The notes below the pieces were generated by a model, which saw nothing but the letters and a program-made list of their open reading frames with translations, was not told where the DNA came from and did no database searches. A DNA stretch of 64,000 nt from contig JANYJE010000034.1 in the NCBI GenBank assembly GCA_025408405.1, positions 1-64,000 on the forward strand. The letters are read 5' to 3'. This document shows, piece by piece, positions 21,238 to 27,339 of this stretch. The first letter of the stretch is position 1; each line of letters begins with the position of its first letter. The translations under genes and the position numbers were made by a program. Origin of the DNA: Nitrosomonadales bacterium. Its GTDB lineage: Bacteria > Pseudomonadota > Gammaproteobacteria > Burkholderiales > Gallionellaceae.

Positions 21238-24045
21238 TCAAAAGTCCCAACGGAAGCCTAGTGCGAAATATTGCCTGACAGTTTGGGAAGAATCCAAGCC
21301 GCCGCCAGGTGTATTTTGGGTCCAGTCTATCCCGCACTCAGCCTCCAAGGTAAGACTGGTTCTCAACCGATACCCAGCCTTGGCTGTCGGTGAAATTGTC
21401 GTTGCACTCCCACCCGTGCTGTCATTCTGCAAATACAAGCGCAATGTAGAATCGAGCGTCCATGGATCCTGTAAATAGGCATGGTTATACATCAGCAGGG
21501 ACTTGCCCGACATCTGATCAGTCTGCGTCAAGCTCGCGCTGAACATGGTCAGATCGTGGCTCGCAATCACATTGTTTCCTGTCAGCCTTTCAGTGATTGT
21601 CCACGCATTGCCGGTAGACGGGGTGGCAGGAACGAAGCCTTCCAGGCCGGTTGTAAAATCCGGATTCAGGGTTCCGCTCGCTTGCAAGCCGGTTGTATTC
21701 GACAGCGTTACATCCGTACCCAGCTGCCACTTCTCGGATAGGTGGTTGGTCACGCCGAACATGGCCATGCTGGAAGTCGGCGTGCGCTGATCAGCCAGGG
21801 TGAGCAAATCATCCGTAGTCCAGCCGTTATCCAGCAAGGTCTGCACCGAAGCCGTGGTGCCAATTACTGCGTTCCTGATGCTTAGAGACGGGCTCCTGCG
21901 GCGATCCAGCAGGAAGTTGTAATCCATCCCTGACTCGCTGCTAAGCGTTCCCTGCACCGTAAGCATGTTCAGTTGTTTGAACTGAGTATCGTAATCGATC
22001 ATGGTAAAAGCGGTTCTTCTCGGTTCAAAATATCTCACAATACCGCCGGCAGCCTGGCGATCAAGAATCCCGGCCACGGTCTGGTTAATAAAATAAAACG
22101 AACCGCCGATGGCGGATTTGACACCGAAGTCTACGCTTGCGCCTGCAAATCTTGGCTGGTCGCCAATGGTCTGATCCGATAGCTGCCCGCCCACCACGTT
22201 AACGCGCCAATCGGGCGAGAAACCGTAGCCAGCCGTGATCCCGTCAAACCTGCCCATTACGCCGCCGCCATAGGCAGACTGGCGCCCTACGCGCAGGGAA
22301 TAATTATCGACACGATTTTTCACTTCCGCATAGGCTGCATTTAACCTGTTTCTATCTTGCCCGTTGGGCAAGAAATTTTTGGCATACATATCCTGAAATA
22401 CCAGGCGATTATCGAACTCGTTGTTGTATGAGCGCACCGAGGTCATTACATTGGTAAATAATGCAGATTGGTCATTGGTAGTCAGGGTGGTTGGCGTCTG
22501 AATCCCACCTACGGTCGAAATCGTGTCGATACGGCTTTTCCCGTTATAGTAATAAGAGGACAGGCTGCCGAACCCTGTTGTATGAAATGCCGACAACTCT
22601 GCGTCAGGAGCCGCCGGTTTGACTGCCAGAGGTGTTACTTGAGCAGGCAATATTAAATTCAGTTTTGCCACCCGATCCTTGGCCCACGCCGACGCAGCTC
22701 CGTTCGGATATAACTTCAAATATGACTCATACTCCAATCTTGCCTTGGCTGGCTGCCCGGATTTTTCCTTGGCTATGCCAATCCAGATTTGTGCATCCTG
22801 CGAGTATTTGTTGGGGGGAAGGTTAAGCGTATTGTTAAACGCTTCAACTGCAGCATACATTTGCCCCGCCAGCAGCGCATCCTGCCCCTTCGCCATCTGC
22901 ACTGCTGCCAGGTCATTTGCATTTTTTACCTGATCCGCCAGCGTGGGGGATTCTGGCGGTGCAATGCTTGCCACACCCGGGGCCGGCAATTCGATGTCTG
23001 GAAACAGTGGCAATCCATCTTTTCCACCAAGGCGTGAAGCGATGATGGTTGGCTTGGCAGCAGGCTGAATCGCAGCCGGTTTTGTTTGGGCAACAGCAGG
23101 CGGCGCAACCGCAACAGCAGCGACTACGGGCTGTGGCGTCGGCGCAGCCGCAACAGTGGGAAGTGGCACCGGGACCGCAACAACCGCGGGTTGTGAAGTC
23201 GGCACGGCGGCGGCAACTGCAGATTGCGGGCTGGGAGCAACAGCAACCACGGACTTCTGAACTGGAGCAGCAGCGGCTTGCTGAGTCGGAGCAACCAGTG
23301 GAAGCGGGATCGCCGCAACAGCCATTGCTGGAATCGGAACAACGGCAACCGCCGATGGCGGAGTGGGAGCAACTGCGGGCTTCTGCACCGGAGCGGCAGC
23401 AACAGCAGATTGTGGCGCTGGAGCAGCTGCAAGCACGGGCTTCTGCACCGGAGCGGCAGCAGGTTGCGCAAGCGGGACAGCTGGAACAGGTTTAGCGCTC
23501 GCCCCAGCCAACGCTATGCCCGCTAGCGGAACTACCGGTTTGGCCAATGTCGTTGCCTGAGCCAGTGACGATGCCGCTACCACAGCGGATCCCGCGCCTG
23601 ACTGTGCTTTATTCAATATTGCAGGTTTGATATGAATCAGAATACTTCTGCCGCTTTTCCCGGCACTCACCTCGTACTCAGCAGGTTTATCAAATTGAAG
23701 TTGAATTTTAGGGCCGGTATTTAAATCACGCGTTGTTATCGTAAAGCCGGTAATGGTATCCGACGGAGGAGATCTGTGCGATTCGTAGTCTATCCATTCA
23801 TCGCGGGGAACAGTATTGAGGATGTTGAAAAAAATCGCGACATAGGGCGATTTATGCTGCGGGAAATGTCTGACGTACTGGATTGGAACGATGAACTTGA
23901 CCACCGCATCAATCTCGCCATTGGCATCGGTATGCAGGGTGATCTCGTCTATAATCTCGGCCGAGGCATGGCTTGCCAAGGCAAGGCAAATCACCATCAA
24001 AGCAAAAAATGCCCCCAACCTTTTTTTTACATCAATATGCGGCAT
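21238..24045 (-). CDS. Outer-membrane porin-like protein with AMIN-like, Pro/Ala linker and TPR regions
   Basis: 935 residues from the ATG at 24043-24045. Order of parts: signal peptide (AFFALMVICLALASHASA); an AMIN-like beta domain, about 30-150 (FIVPIQYVRHFPQHKSPYVAIFF); a long Pro/Ala/Val linker, about 160-355; a TPR-like helical segment, about 375-470 (GQDALLAGQMYAAVEAFNNTL, KARLEYESYLKLYPNG); then a roughly 450-residue domain of alternating amphipathic strands ending in ALGFRWDF, with the terminal aromatic residue expected of an outer-membrane barrel. It follows the 21-heme cytochrome gene by about 55 bp and is likely co-transcribed. The pairing suggests a porin-cytochrome conduit, similar in concept to MtrAB or the PCC clusters of iron oxidisers; function is inferred. 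Confidence 0.72.
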   Translation of the reverse strand: MPHIDVKKRLGAFFALMVICLALASHASAEIIDEITLHTDANGEIDAVVKFIVPIQYVRHFPQHKSPYVAIFFNILNTVPRDEWIDYESHRSPPSDTITGFTITTRDLNTGPKIQLQFDKPAEYEVSAGKSGRSILIHIKPAILNKAQSGAGSAVVAASSLAQATTLAKPVVPLAGIALAGASAKPVPAVPLAQPAAAPVQKPVLAAAPAPQSAVAAAPVQKPAVAPTPPSAVAVVPIPAMAVAAIPLPLVAPTQQAAAAPVQKSVVAVAPSPQSAVAAAVPTSQPAVVAVPVPLPTVAAAPTPQPVVAAVAVAPPAVAQTKPAAIQPAAKPTIIASRLGGKDGLPLFPDIELPAPGVASIAPPESPTLADQVKNANDLAAVQMAKGQDALLAGQMYAAVEAFNNTLNLPPNKYSQDAQIWIGIAKEKSGQPAKARLEYESYLKLYPNGAASAWAKDRVAKLNLILPAQVTPLAVKPAAPDAELSAFHTTGFGSLSSYYYNGKSRIDTISTVGGIQTPTTLTTNDQSALFTNVMTSVRSYNNEFDNRLVFQDMYAKNFLPNGQDRNRLNAAYAEVKNRVDNYSLRVGRQSAYGGGVMGRFDGITAGYGFSPDWRVNVVGGQLSDQTIGDQPRFAGASVDFGVKSAIGGSFYFINQTVAGILDRQAAGGIVRYFEPRRTAFTMIDYDTQFKQLNMLTVQGTLSSESGMDYNFLLDRRRSPSLSIRNAVIGTTASVQTLLDNGWTTDDLLTLADQRTPTSSMAMFGVTNHLSEKWQLGTDVTLSNTTGLQASGTLNPDFTTGLEGFVPATPSTGNAWTITERLTGNNVIASHDLTMFSASLTQTDQMSGKSLLMYNHAYLQDPWTLDSTLRLYLQNDSTGGSATTISPTAKAGYRLRTSLTLEAECGIDWTQNTPGGGLDSSQTVRQYFALGFRWDF
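22985..23570. repeat. Degenerate Pro/Ala-coding low-complexity repeat inside the porin gene
   Basis: This stretch of the porin gene encodes a degenerate tandem of short APxxQ(K/S)(P/A)VAAA-type units. At DNA level some units are near identical, for example GGGCTTCTGCACCGGAGCGG near 23380 and again near 23434. Such tracts expand and contract by slippage, so linker length may vary between strains. Confidence 0.75.
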
Positions 24046-24071
24046 TAAATTGCTCAATAATTATTGAAACA

Positions 24072-24100: not shown

Positions 24101-26062
24101 CTAGTTCCAAGAGTTATATGTAGAACCTATGCTCCCCAACGGCTTGTGGCAGCCAGACTTCGAGCAATCTTTCGCAACGCTGGCGCCATTATGGCTCTTC
24201 TTCTGCATAGATCCCAAGTAGGTAACCCCGGTAAGGTGACAATTCACGCAGTAATTAGGCGCTCCACCCGGTGCTCCATTATGGTTCATTTTCTCGGGCG
24301 GTTGCGTCCATAACATAGCCGCACTACTTGCGTTGACGGCAGTCACATGGCAGGTATTGCAATCCAATGCGCCGGTAATAGTCGTCGGGATATGGTTGCT
24401 CACTTTAGGTTGCGCCCCCAATGTTCCCTGGGTGGTATAGGCACCGTTATGGCAAGTCTGGCACTGTATGGCTGCAGTCAGCACATGGTTCATGGTTCCC
24501 GGTGCAAAGGTGATAACCGACGTGCCATTGTATTTCTGGTGGCATCCGTCACAAGACATGGCACCTGTCGGAATATGCCCTGCTGAAAGCCCCTTCGCGG
24601 CAGCGCCATTGTGGCAGGTCTGACATGAGCCCGCCGCAATTGTTGAATGGTCAACTCCTGTCGCCCCGAGGAAGGTGGTGAAATTGGCGGTGTTAGTCGG
24701 TGTGTGGCAGGCATCGCACGCCACCGAGGTCACCATATGCCATGTTGGCTTACCCAATGCGGTGATGCCGTTGTGACAGGTCGCACAAGAGCCGGGGGTC
24801 GGGATAGGAGGAGTGTGCACATATACCGCCCCCAGCCATGTCGTGTAACCGGCTGTGTTGGTATGGCACGAGTCGCATACCGCCGCAGTCGGAATATGAG
24901 CCGCGGGCTTACCCAATGCATTCACGCCGTTATGGCAGGTACCGCATGAGCCCGCGACGACAGCCTGATGACTATACGTGGCACCAAAGAAGGTCGTGTA
25001 GTTGCTGGTGTTAGCAGCGGTGTGGCAGGTGTCGCATTGCGACACAGTTGATATATGGAATGCCGGCTTGCCCAGTATTCCGGCAAATTGCCCCGTGTGG
25101 CAGGTAGAACAATTTCCCGCTGACGCAGGGGTTGCCGTGGCAACGTGGTCATAGTACCCGCCCAGAAACGTCGTATAACCTCCAGTGTTGGCAGCGGTAT
25201 GACACGTATCGCATTGCGCTCCCAATGTCATGACATGAGCTGCCGGTTGGTTAACCACACCAGCATATTGCCCCAAATGGCAGCTGTTACAAGCTCCTGC
25301 GACTGCGACTGACGAGTGGTTGAATATCGCCCCCAGAAATGTAATGGTGCTCGAGTGGCACACTTCGCATGGCGCCGTTGTCGCAATATGCGCTGCGGGT
25401 TTGCTCACCACATTGACAAATTGCCCGCTATGGCAGGAAGCACATCCGGTCGTGATACCGGTATGGTCCATACGCGAGCTGGCAAAGGTAGCGGTATTGG
25501 TATGGCAGTTTTCGCAAGGCAACAAAGTTGGAAAGTGGTTTACAGGTTTGCTCACCACCCCTAAAGACTGTCCGTTATGGCAGGAGGTGCAACCGCCGGT
25601 TATGCCGATATGCCTGAAGCTCGCAACCAGAAAGCTGGTAGGGCTGATATGACAAGTATCGCAAGCATCATTGGTCACCACGTGATTAACGGGTCTGGGA
25701 GTGGCGGCGACACGGCTGCCGATAGAATGGCAACCAGCGCATTCCTTGGGCGTCCCTTTGAACACGCCCTCCACATGGCATTGCTCACAGCGTAAAGTGG
25801 TATGAATATCCCTGAGCAAGAATCCTGTTTTAGCGTGATCAAATGGGGGAATCTTGGTGGTTGGCGGCACCTGCTGGGGCACAGACTGTGACGGCTTGGG
25901 TGCCACCTGTGTCGGCTTGGATATTGCCTGCGCAGGTTTGGGGGCTATCTGTGTCGCCTGGGGCGCAGATTGCGCCTGCGCGAGGCCCACAAAACTGATC
26001 AGTGACAGCATCACTATCGCGCTACAAACGGAAAATATTTGTTTAGTGTCTGTAATGTTCAT
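24101..26062 (-). CDS. Secreted 21-heme c-type cytochrome
   Basis: 653 residues from the ATG at 26060-26062, which has GGTGGGGG upstream; the ATG at 26077 has no ribosome site. A Sec signal peptide (IVMLSLISFVGLAQA) and a Pro/Lys/Gln-rich segment precede the heme region. I count twenty CXXCH motifs and one terminal CX4CH (CSKSGCH). Outside these motifs there are exactly 21 further histidines, mostly in regularly placed xxHxxT or FxHxxV contexts, consistent with every heme being bis-histidine ligated. Motifs repeat about every 30 residues, alternating CxxCHNGQ and CDTCHTxxN types. No lipobox is seen, so it is periplasmic or threaded through the barrel. Likely role: long-range electron transfer with the downstream porin. 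Confidence 0.9.
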   Translation of the reverse strand: MNITDTKQIFSVCSAIVMLSLISFVGLAQAQSAPQATQIAPKPAQAISKPTQVAPKPSQSVPQQVPPTTKIPPFDHAKTGFLLRDIHTTLRCEQCHVEGVFKGTPKECAGCHSIGSRVAATPRPVNHVVTNDACDTCHISPTSFLVASFRHIGITGGCTSCHNGQSLGVVSKPVNHFPTLLPCENCHTNTATFASSRMDHTGITTGCASCHSGQFVNVVSKPAAHIATTAPCEVCHSSTITFLGAIFNHSSVAVAGACNSCHLGQYAGVVNQPAAHVMTLGAQCDTCHTAANTGGYTTFLGGYYDHVATATPASAGNCSTCHTGQFAGILGKPAFHISTVSQCDTCHTAANTSNYTTFFGATYSHQAVVAGSCGTCHNGVNALGKPAAHIPTAAVCDSCHTNTAGYTTWLGAVYVHTPPIPTPGSCATCHNGITALGKPTWHMVTSVACDACHTPTNTANFTTFLGATGVDHSTIAAGSCQTCHNGAAAKGLSAGHIPTGAMSCDGCHQKYNGTSVITFAPGTMNHVLTAAIQCQTCHNGAYTTQGTLGAQPKVSNHIPTTITGALDCNTCHVTAVNASSAAMLWTQPPEKMNHNGAPGGAPNYCVNCHLTGVTYLGSMQKKSHNGASVAKDCSKSGCHKPLGSIGSTYNSWN

Positions 26063-26153
26063 CGCAGCCCCCACCATAACTTAATTATTGTTGAATAAAA
26101 ATTGCATCCAGCCCGACCCGCTCCCAATGGACATCCTGCTGACTTCGGGTGGC

Positions 26154-26431: not shown

Positions 26432-26710
26432 ATGAATAATCCCAACTCAAATATGTCGGCCTCTAACAGCAATATTGAGTCCAATATTCGCCCCGTCAGG
26501 AAAGACTACCCAAGCGAAGTGGCAGAAATTTACCGACAGGAGAGTCAGCAGTCATTTGACATTTCGAATTGCCAAGTAAGAACTTATGTGGCGGGCTTGG
26601 CGGAATGTCTCACCTCTGAATTCTGCCATTTCTGCGGCAACTCAATACCCTTTGCAAATACCAATTTTTGCAAACACCCGTTACTAGTCAAAAAGGTAAC
26701 TAAATACTAA
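26432..26710 (+). CDS. Small Cys-containing hypothetical protein divergent from the cytochrome
   Basis: 92 residues with a good ribosome site (GGAGAGG before the ATG). The N-terminus is Asn/Ser-rich and polar. The C-terminal third carries ECLTSEFCHFCGNSIPF followed by NFCKHPLL, a CxxCG plus distal Cys/His pattern resembling half of a zinc ribbon or an anti-sigma-type metal site. There is no signal peptide. I do not recognise the family. It diverges from the 21-heme cytochrome gene across a 370 bp AT-rich gap, so a regulatory link is possible but unproven. Confidence 0.6.
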   Translation: MNNPNSNMSASNSNIESNIRPVRKDYPSEVAEIYRQESQQSFDISNCQVRTYVAGLAECLTSEFCHFCGNSIPFANTNFCKHPLLVKKVTKY

Positions 26711-26760: not shown

Positions 26761-26820
26761 CTTAGCTCCCCCCTCTTCAGCTAAGACATGCCCCCCTGAC
26801 TCTTGGGTCAGGGGGTTTTT
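26761..26820 (+). terminator. Two stacked hairpins ending in a rho-independent terminator
   Basis: CTTAGCT (26761-26767) pairs with AGCTAAG (26779-26785), then CCCCCTGAC (26792-26800) pairs with GTCAGGGGG (26807-26815), followed by TTTTT. It ends the transcript of the small gene at 26432 and could also form the 3' part of a small RNA. The remaining sequence to the tRNA terminator at 27031 shows no gene. Confidence 0.85.
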
Positions 26821-27099: not shown

Positions 27100-27187
27100 T
27101 GGCGGAAGCTGTGAGATTCGAACTCACGGAACATTTCTGTTCGGCAGTTTTCAAGACTGCTGGTTTAAACCACTCACCCAAGCTTCC
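27100..27187 (-). tRNA. tRNA-Ser (anticodon TGA), CCA encoded
   Basis: The minus strand gives GGAAGCTTGGGTGAGTGG at the 5' end, an anticodon loop CTTGAAA with anticodon TGA, a long variable arm, the T-loop GTTCGAATC and the 3' end GCTTCCGCCA with an encoded CCA. The acceptor stem GGAAGC/GCTTCC is fully paired. Length is 88 bases, right for a class II serine tRNA reading UCA and UCG-type codons. Confidence 0.95.
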
Positions 27188-27258
27188 TGATTTTTTCTCT
27201 CTGTACGCATAGAGTGGCAGTTTTGGCTACAACATAACCTAAAGGTTAGTCTGCGCCG

Positions 27259-27283
27259 CAACAAGCCGCTACGCGGCGTGTTG
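27259..27283. repeat. Hairpin abutting the tRNA-Ser fragment
   Basis: CAACAAGCCGC (27259-27269) pairs with GCGGCGTGTTG (27273-27283) with one mismatch and a 3-base loop. Its right end touches the first base of the truncated tRNA copy at 27284. No T-run follows on either strand, so it is not a classical terminator. Confidence 0.6.
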
Positions 27284-27339
27284 TCAAGACTGCTGGTTTA
27301 AACCACTCACCCAAGTTTCCTGATTTTCTCTCTCTGTAC
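27284..27339 (-). pseudogene. Truncated 5' copy of tRNA-Ser plus its leader
   Basis: The 56 bp at 27284-27339 match 27151-27206 with only two differences, offset 133 bp. The copy covers tRNA nucleotides 1-37, ending exactly at the TGA anticodon, plus 19 bp of upstream leader. One mismatch changes the acceptor stem (GGAAGC to GGAAAC). It cannot encode a functional tRNA. It is either the relic of a tandem tRNA duplication or one end of a past integration. Between 27340 and the gene at 27532 nothing else is seen. Confidence 0.85.

Follow-up and report, generated by a model that had tools for sequence, protein, structure and literature searches.

A 21-heme cytochrome encoded beside a porin in a Gallionellaceae genome: a predicted outer member of the PCC3 family and a candidate NAD(P)-type partner

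Introduction

The porin-cytochrome system PCC3, named by He in 2017 (PMC5566968), is reported in the available parts of that paper to occur in Alpha-, Beta- and Gammaproteobacteria, most of them without known metal redox activity, and to possess outer cytochromes with 22–39 residues per heme. Its described hallmarks further comprise a periplasmic cytochrome with 21, 24 or 27 hemes and an inner-membrane protein with two WX3HX13H motifs plus SGXXG (PMC5566968 / PMC10734462, available parts), and the accessible text of a 2025 paper (PMC12442390) calls PCC3 functionally unverified.

The protein considered here is encoded in the window, that is, the whole analysed stretch of 64,000 nucleotides. As far as the texts are available, it shares with the PCC3 extracellular cytochromes (PMC5566968; clusters 241, 242 and 331 of PMC10734462) a porin neighbour, repeated heme-motif units, a low number of residues per heme, a composition rich in T, A, G and S, and the existence of periplasmic and inner-membrane partners; it differs from them in that its partner genes lie on another contig and in its Pro-rich tether. 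The outer clusters in Table 1 of PMC10734462, in the part accessible to us, have 10–18 and 26–35 hemes, as compared with 21 in the window protein, a number which in that table belongs to a periplasmic PCC3 cytochrome.

Other multiheme families are more remote. The decahemes MtrC and OmcA (TIGR03507) are likewise outer cytochromes of a porin-cytochrome system, but the window protein reaches 39.6 bits against a cut-off of 209.3 for their profile, is devoid of a lipobox and carries its 21 hemes in linear modules. The MtrA/MtoA/DmsE decahemes (TIGR03508) share the small number of residues per heme, but the score of 47.8 bits is again far below the cut-off of 192.2. In the profile search against multiheme families suggested by the initial annotation, it is Pfam Cytochrome_C7 (PF14522) that matches, with 107.6 bits against a gathering cut-off of 24.8 and in seven stretches of the protein, while the c(7)-type triheme ‘nanowire’ domain TIGR04257 remains below its cut-off (33.3 against 40); in contrast to both TIGR04257 and PF14522, the repeat observed here is a two-heme and not a three-heme unit. 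Geobacter OmcS and OmcZ form filaments that are polymerised from units of few hemes and conduct outside the cell; these too are heme chains, but in the window protein the length is built into one polypeptide. A DmsE/MtoA-type decaheme that does exceed the TIGR03508 cut-off (280.9 bits) is encoded elsewhere in the same genome (G000:C70 8215–9054, locus L172).

Sequence sets and definitions

Related loci were obtained from a porin search of named genomes, with the best 80 of 101 related stretches being retained. An outer-type cytochrome was defined as an open reading frame (ORF) with at least five heme motifs and a K+R content of at most 10%, which yielded 72 such ORFs on the plus strand; ORFs of intermediate K+R content in L123 and L134 were left unclassified. 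The full-length set (n = 57) comprises the window protein and 56 of the 72 ORFs, the remaining 16 having been left out on account of a contig edge, a missing N-cap pattern or, in L103 and L111, a missing end motif. ORFs were taken from the first start codon, so that some N-termini are too long. The rows of alignment A2 were chosen by hand and those taken end in CX4CH; its invariant C-terminal columns therefore prove nothing.

For the oxidoreductase gene discussed below, adjacency was counted in the 39 named loci with at least 1.6 kb of sequence upstream of the inner-membrane gene. The wider scan for this gene produced 15 matches outside the family, for 14 of which the loci were fetched; the 15th, in genome G058, is L049. 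The genome that contains the window is a draft of 98 contigs and 93% completeness.

Results and Discussion

A cytochrome built from two-heme modules

The protein, read from the ATG at 26062 (an alternative ORF start at 26077 is possible), contains 20 CX2CH motifs, no CX3CH motif and one CX4CH motif, numbers which count motifs and not bound heme. All but one of its 43 Cys reside in heme motifs, the exception being C13 in the signal peptide, and its 42 His divide evenly into 21 motif and 21 spare residues. The recount thus reproduces exactly the 20 CXXCH motifs, single C-terminal CX4CH and 21 spare His of the initial annotation. Along the chain, spare His (h) and heme motifs (C) follow the order h h C C and then (h C) nineteen times, which was reproduced in none of 20,000 shuffles of the non-motif residues from residue 74 onward. 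With 653 residues for 21 motifs, the protein uses 31 residues per heme.

When split at its spare His (Table 1), the protein resolves into a two-heme cap, eight modules and a three-heme cap, so that its heme number equals 5 + 2n with n = 8. The modules M1–M8 have 49–61 residues each and are pairwise 27–60% identical, which bears out the two-heme repeat that had been proposed; at the DNA level their identity is 63% at most, and the duplications are therefore not recent. The N-terminal cap gives weak matches to the periplasmic cytochrome of the same genome (E 4.2e-5 and 2.7e-4). An AlphaFold model based on 41 alignment rows is poor (pLDDT 56.6, pTM 0.31), Foldseek found no PDB entry resembling it at E <= 10, and phmmer against the PDB returned a single weak match, MtrC, at E 0.0036. 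A scan for promoters and terminators remained near chance (7 versus 6.4 and 11 versus 8.0).

Table 1. Positions of the features discussed. Coordinates are those of the window unless another contig is named.
Feature	Position	Strand	Basis
Outer (extracellular-type) PCC3 cytochrome gene, 21 hemes, 653 aa (predicted)	24101..26062	-	ORF translation; Pfam Cytochrome_C7
Signal peptide, residues 1-31	25970..26062	-	Cut site by eye; helix 6-24 in AlphaFold model; without lipobox
Pro-rich tether, residues 32-73	25844..25969	-	>12% Pro; pLDDT 26-72
N-terminal two-heme cap, residues 74-121, h h C C	25700..25843	-	Split at spare His
Two-heme modules M1-M8, residues 122-551	24410..25699	-	Split at spare His
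C-terminal three-heme cap, residues 552-653	24104..24409	-	Split at spare His
Terminal CX4CH heme site, residues 633-639	24146..24166	-	Motif count; family signature
PCC3 porin, 937-939 aa by start chosen	21238..24057	-	Structure model, barrel comparison, relatives
Porin beta barrel, residues 490-936, 22-24 strands counted in model	21244..22584	-	pLDDT mostly >90
Porin TPR-like helical domain, residues 371-467	22651..22941	-	Model; YfiO and TPR_6 matches below cut-off
Junction particular to own genome	26078..27099	.	Small ORF, then tRNA-Ser, where sister genome G004 has periplasmic cytochrome
FeS/FAD, NAD(P)-type oxidoreductase gene, 434 aa	L053 8021-9325 (contig C81)	divergent from inner-membrane gene	Sequence

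Rules of the family

Spare His are at least as numerous as hemes in every one of the 57 full-length proteins, which as relatives are non-independent samples, and the two numbers rise together over a range of 9–63 hemes (slope 0.995, r 0.989). They are equal, in the exact order hhCC(hC)n, in 25 proteins, while 32 have an excess of 1 to 11 His. It is thus likely that a spare His serves as second ligand on each heme (bis-His ligation); since so many members possess extra His, however, ligands cannot be assigned by counting alone. In proteins with 20 or more hemes, the window protein included, the heme number is odd in 21 of 22, as 5 + 2n predicts, and CH-x-G sites past the second heme favour even over odd positions by 246 to 24. 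Among the proteins with fewer than 20 hemes, 27 of 35 have an even number, and 5 + 2n therefore describes only the longer members. As judged from sequence, chain length in these long members is changed by heme pairs; in some long relatives, repeat blocks of four or six hemes are apparent by eye. The strict pattern aa(ab)n aaa had to be rejected as a universal rule, its module alternation being kept in only three of the 57 proteins, with that of the window protein being perfect.

The C-terminus is a CX4CH motif in 57 of the 72 relatives, CX2CH in 12 and neither in three, and in 53 of the 57 that have CX4CH the first Cys of the terminal motif is followed by Ser. The Pro-rich tether (Pro content above 12% over the 42 residues preceding the N-cap), on the other hand, is found in the window protein alone of the 57 full-length proteins. 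Of the two features by which the initial annotation had set this protein apart, the tether consequently stands, whereas CX4CH, rejected as a mark of this protein, is a family signature; likewise, one spare His per heme is indeed present here, but is no special trait in a family where every member has at least that many. A reading as an MtrC-like lipoprotein was unsupported as well: a lipobox-like motif occurs in one of the 57 proteins (L127), where it probably lies upstream of the true start, and is absent from the window protein.

L077 (1160–7012) encodes an outer cytochrome with 63 heme motifs in a single reading frame of 1950 residues, and outer cytochromes with 63 motifs were also seen in L183, L185 and L186, from other families, in frames of 1673–1687 residues.

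The porin and membership in PCC3

The gene that follows 43 bp downstream of the cytochrome gene (longest reading frame) encodes a protein modelled with a mean pLDDT of 78 as an N-terminal beta domain (residues 31–142), a disordered Pro/Ala linker (147–328), a TPR-like domain and a barrel, which substantiates the neighbouring porin of the initial annotation. Pfam matches of the TPR-like domain to YfiO (24.3 bits) and TPR_6 (21.8 bits) are both below cut-off. The 50 VIA matches listed, which span the porin barrel only, are mostly TonB-dependent receptors (Z 15.6–18.1, rmsd 4.2–7.0, 244–401 residues). For the N-terminal beta domain AMIN was considered as a candidate; its assignment to a named Pfam domain was rejected, as no match within E 5 was found except MraZ at E 0.2.

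The cytochrome is matched in 20 of 60 genomes (own included), and a porin match accompanies it in 19 of them. At the level of loci, the porin was found at 17 of 20 cytochrome loci from relatives; of the remaining three, L036 is affected by a contig edge, L039 carries an orphan gene and L051 encodes a distant 15-motif protein. For the expectation that orthologs would keep the porin, which the initial annotation had made a test of its reading, the outcome is mixed. The orphan gene itself (L039 9795–11714) encodes an outer-type cytochrome with 22 CX2CH motifs and a terminal CX4CH, and lies in a 19-kb stretch without a porin gene; its flanking genes, as read by eye, probably code for a PAS-type sensor on one side and for hydrogenase maturation on the other. 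L110, from a contig assigned to Candidatus Wallbacteria, resembles the PCC3 loci in bins of Gallionella, and this contig is possibly misbinned.

The adjoining porin, the 31 residues per heme, a 24-heme periplasmic cytochrome and the motifs of the inner-membrane protein all agree with what has been described for PCC3. Taken at the level of sequence, the window protein belongs to a known family, as the outer multiheme cytochrome in a PCC3 system that is encoded beside its porin; PCC3 is a porin-cytochrome type reported for Gallionellaceae.

A cluster divided between two contigs

The remaining genes lie at the end of contig C81, apart from the window's contig C34: those of the periplasmic cytochrome with 24 CXXCH motifs (L053 10516–12294), of the inner-membrane protein (L053 9580–10491) and of the FeS/FAD oxidoreductase. 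The inner-membrane protein exhibits HX13H at 98 and 282, WX3H at 94 and 278, and SGIFG at 135; a simple hydropathy scan, for which the criterion is five transmembrane helices, gave overlapping peaks. Upstream of the outer cytochrome gene the window contains no periplasmic cytochrome gene. The small ORF located there (26432–26710, plus strand, 92 aa) has by eye a likely ribosome site and is followed by a terminator-like stem at 26792–26815; it finds matches, mostly partial, in nine of 120 family genomes (own included) and none in Pfam. Beyond it, tRNA-Ser(TGA) occupies 27100–27187, and part of its sequence is repeated near 27280–27330. The stretch 27100–27321 aligns to sister genome G004 in one piece, and the tRNA remains linked to the gene that comes after it here (27532, 227 aa) in six of seven relatives fetched, whose tRNA-Ser stretches hold no cytochrome with four or more CX2CH motifs.

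G004 has the same idh-porin-outer cytochrome block, followed directly upstream by a periplasmic cytochrome gene that is cut by the contig end. The remainder of its cluster begins a contig syntenic with C81, and the two pieces of the periplasmic cytochrome gene (479 + 1287 bases versus 1779) amount to about one gene. From this synteny and the sum of the pieces it follows that the cluster was probably once single and has been split in the present genome, for which a chimeric contig in the draft assembly may be responsible. A direct join of C81 and C34 was rejected, as no end sequence is shared; the tail of C81 occurs once in the assembly, presumably resembles in reverse reading the end of an IS256-family transposase, and a 27-aa piece of it has no Pfam match. 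Given the split, joint production of the outer cytochrome with its partners is uncertain. One could thus imagine that a rearrangement of the operon has left PCC3 decaying in this organism, with the outer half perhaps not being made together with its partners, and the location on two contigs and the broken synteny with G004 are in line with this. However, the reading frames of the two cytochromes, the porin and the inner-membrane protein are all open, the module grammar of the outer cytochrome is perfect, and the split may be nothing but an assembly chimera; we consider decay to be improbable.

Among the periplasmic cytochromes of L055–L134, the 46 that are not flagged at a contig end have motif numbers which are nearly all multiples of three, namely 24 (24 proteins), 27 (nine), 21 (eight), 15 (two), 12, 18 and a single 25; some smaller ones may be truncated.

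A conserved FeS/FAD oxidoreductase

At its N-terminus, the oxidoreductase encoded next to the inner-membrane gene shows a hydrophobic stretch with positive residues behind it (a predicted membrane anchor); it also has two Fer4-type sites with three Cys each (C-X5-C-X3-C-P), the vacant position of the second being taken by a nearly invariant His94. Its pyridine-nucleotide oxidoreductase domain is closest to YpdA, thioredoxin reductases and ferredoxin-NADP reductases; as there is only one further Cys (C410), it has no redox Cys pair. At E <= 1e-100 the gene is found once each in 17 of 60 genomes (own included), all of them among the 21 with a PCC3 porin and none among the 39 without (hypergeometric 1.5e-11, ignoring kinship). 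No match at E 1e-100 was found in the porin-positive genomes G001, G003, G024 and G032, with G003 and G032 being 99% and 100% complete.

In 28 of the 39 loci, the gene and the inner-membrane gene are divergently oriented and no more than 1.6 kb apart; it is located on the porin side in three (adjoining the porin in L131 and L134, about 7.6 kb off in L125), and is missing from the fetched stretch of eight. The wider scan, in which four candidates per genome were scored and which therefore gives a lower bound, detected it in at least 21 of the 399 genomes covered within the order. Of the 14 loci fetched from outside the family, 12 show the gene and the inner-membrane gene in divergent orientation with at most 450 bp between them, and the divergent arrangement is also seen in L049. 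In L180 it is on the porin side, 8 kb from the inner-membrane gene, and in L182 a porin is found at about 7 kb and no cytochrome with six or more motifs; in two further loci, L190 and L191, where the gene is near the contig end, neither partner was seen. Keyword searches of the main text, in its available parts, did not find the gene in PMC5566968, PMC10734462, PMC8788666, PMC12016527, PMC13386937 and PMC12442390, and the accessible portions of the PCC3 papers searched hold no mention of Slit_1445, its expected counterpart in S. lithotrophicus ES-1.

The conserved presence of this partner suggests an NAD(P)H link of PCC3. Fe(II) is unable to reduce NAD(P)+ unless energy is supplied, and with such a link an outward path from NAD(P)H would be the easiest. 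It is thus tempting, though tentative, to consider the conduit as an electron exporter in which electrons would pass from cytoplasmic NAD(P)H via the FeS/FAD protein, the b-type inner-membrane protein, the 24-heme and the 21-heme cytochrome to an acceptor outside. Both the restriction of the gene to porin-bearing genomes and its divergent placement, within and outside the family, argue for export. This is, however, gene association, with cofactors, direction and contact being putative; the gene is missing from four of 21 porin-positive genomes and from eight of 39 loci, the enzyme could serve maturation or redox repair instead, and the expression data for Sideroxydans sp. CL21 lean towards a role in iron oxidation (PMC12442390, available text).

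The latter role, that is, oxidation of Fe(II) or minerals outside the cell with transfer of the electrons to the quinone pool, is what has been proposed for PCC3 in iron oxidisers, and appears rather unlikely to us. It is supported by the models put forward in PMC5566968 and PMC10734462 and by the fact that iron oxidisers of the Gallionellaceae possess PCC3, and strain CL21 expresses both PCC3 copies above the mean, the inner-membrane gene of copy 2 being significantly up in cells able to oxidise iron (PMC12442390; all in the parts available). Conversely, the accessible data for ES-1 show both PCC3 clusters to be down-regulated on Fe(II) (PMC8788666), and many bacteria with PCC3 are without known metal redox (PMC5566968, available parts). 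The initial annotation had associated cytochromes of more than 20 hemes mainly with metal reducers and iron oxidisers, which neither the spread of PCC3 through three proteobacterial classes nor its regulation in ES-1 bears out. A conserved FAD/NAD(P)-type partner is moreover foreign to a pure quinone link, and the present genome has its own DmsE/MtoA-type decaheme as well.

Proposed mode of action

Very probably, the window protein is an exported outer PCC3 cytochrome whose string of two-heme modules holds, together with the caps, 21 c-type hemes, bis-His ligated and acting with its porin as an electron conduit whose partners are encoded on the other contig; heme loading, ligation, extracellular location, electron transfer, substrate and direction are what we infer from its sequence. 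Hemes would be bound along the modules between the two-heme N-cap and the three-heme C-cap, and spare His as second ligands would render them low-spin, leaving no open site for small-molecule catalysis. Electrons would then hop along the 21-heme chain between the exterior and the outer-membrane porin, beyond which the 24-heme periplasmic cytochrome and the b-heme-type inner-membrane protein would follow. Against a conduit stand the relative locus L039, with its cytochrome devoid of a porin, and the ES-1 outer PCC3 cytochrome Slit_1448, which reads 0 in all eight proteome columns shown (PMC12016527, available table), a value that speaks against the Fe(II) oxidase as well.

Alternatively, the many hemes might act as a charge store (capacitor) instead of a long-distance conductor, as suggested in the accessible part of PMC10734462. 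The span of heme numbers in the family would be left unexplained by a wire of constant length, but conduction and storage are not mutually exclusive and the recurrence of caps points to definite ends at which electrons enter and leave; storage in place of conduction is in our view unlikely.

Conclusions

If the conduit is combined with the oxidoreductase, PCC3 might be envisaged, quite provisionally, as a five-part, NAD(P)H-coupled wire that is probably exporting, in which the FeS/FAD protein would link NAD(P)H with the b-type inner-membrane protein and the outer arm would grow by two-heme modules with at least one spare His per heme. If true, the inner end of PCC3 would not simply be the quinone pool. 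The evidence from expression is two-sided, PCC3 being down on Fe(II) in ES-1 and above the mean in CL21 (PMC8788666 and PMC12442390, available parts), and the FeS/FAD partner makes the question concrete whether PCC3 is tied to NAD(P)H instead of being one more Fe(II) oxidase. Finally, a family in which single chains carry from 9 to 63 heme motifs represents a natural length series for tests of conduction versus storage in single-chain cytochromes.
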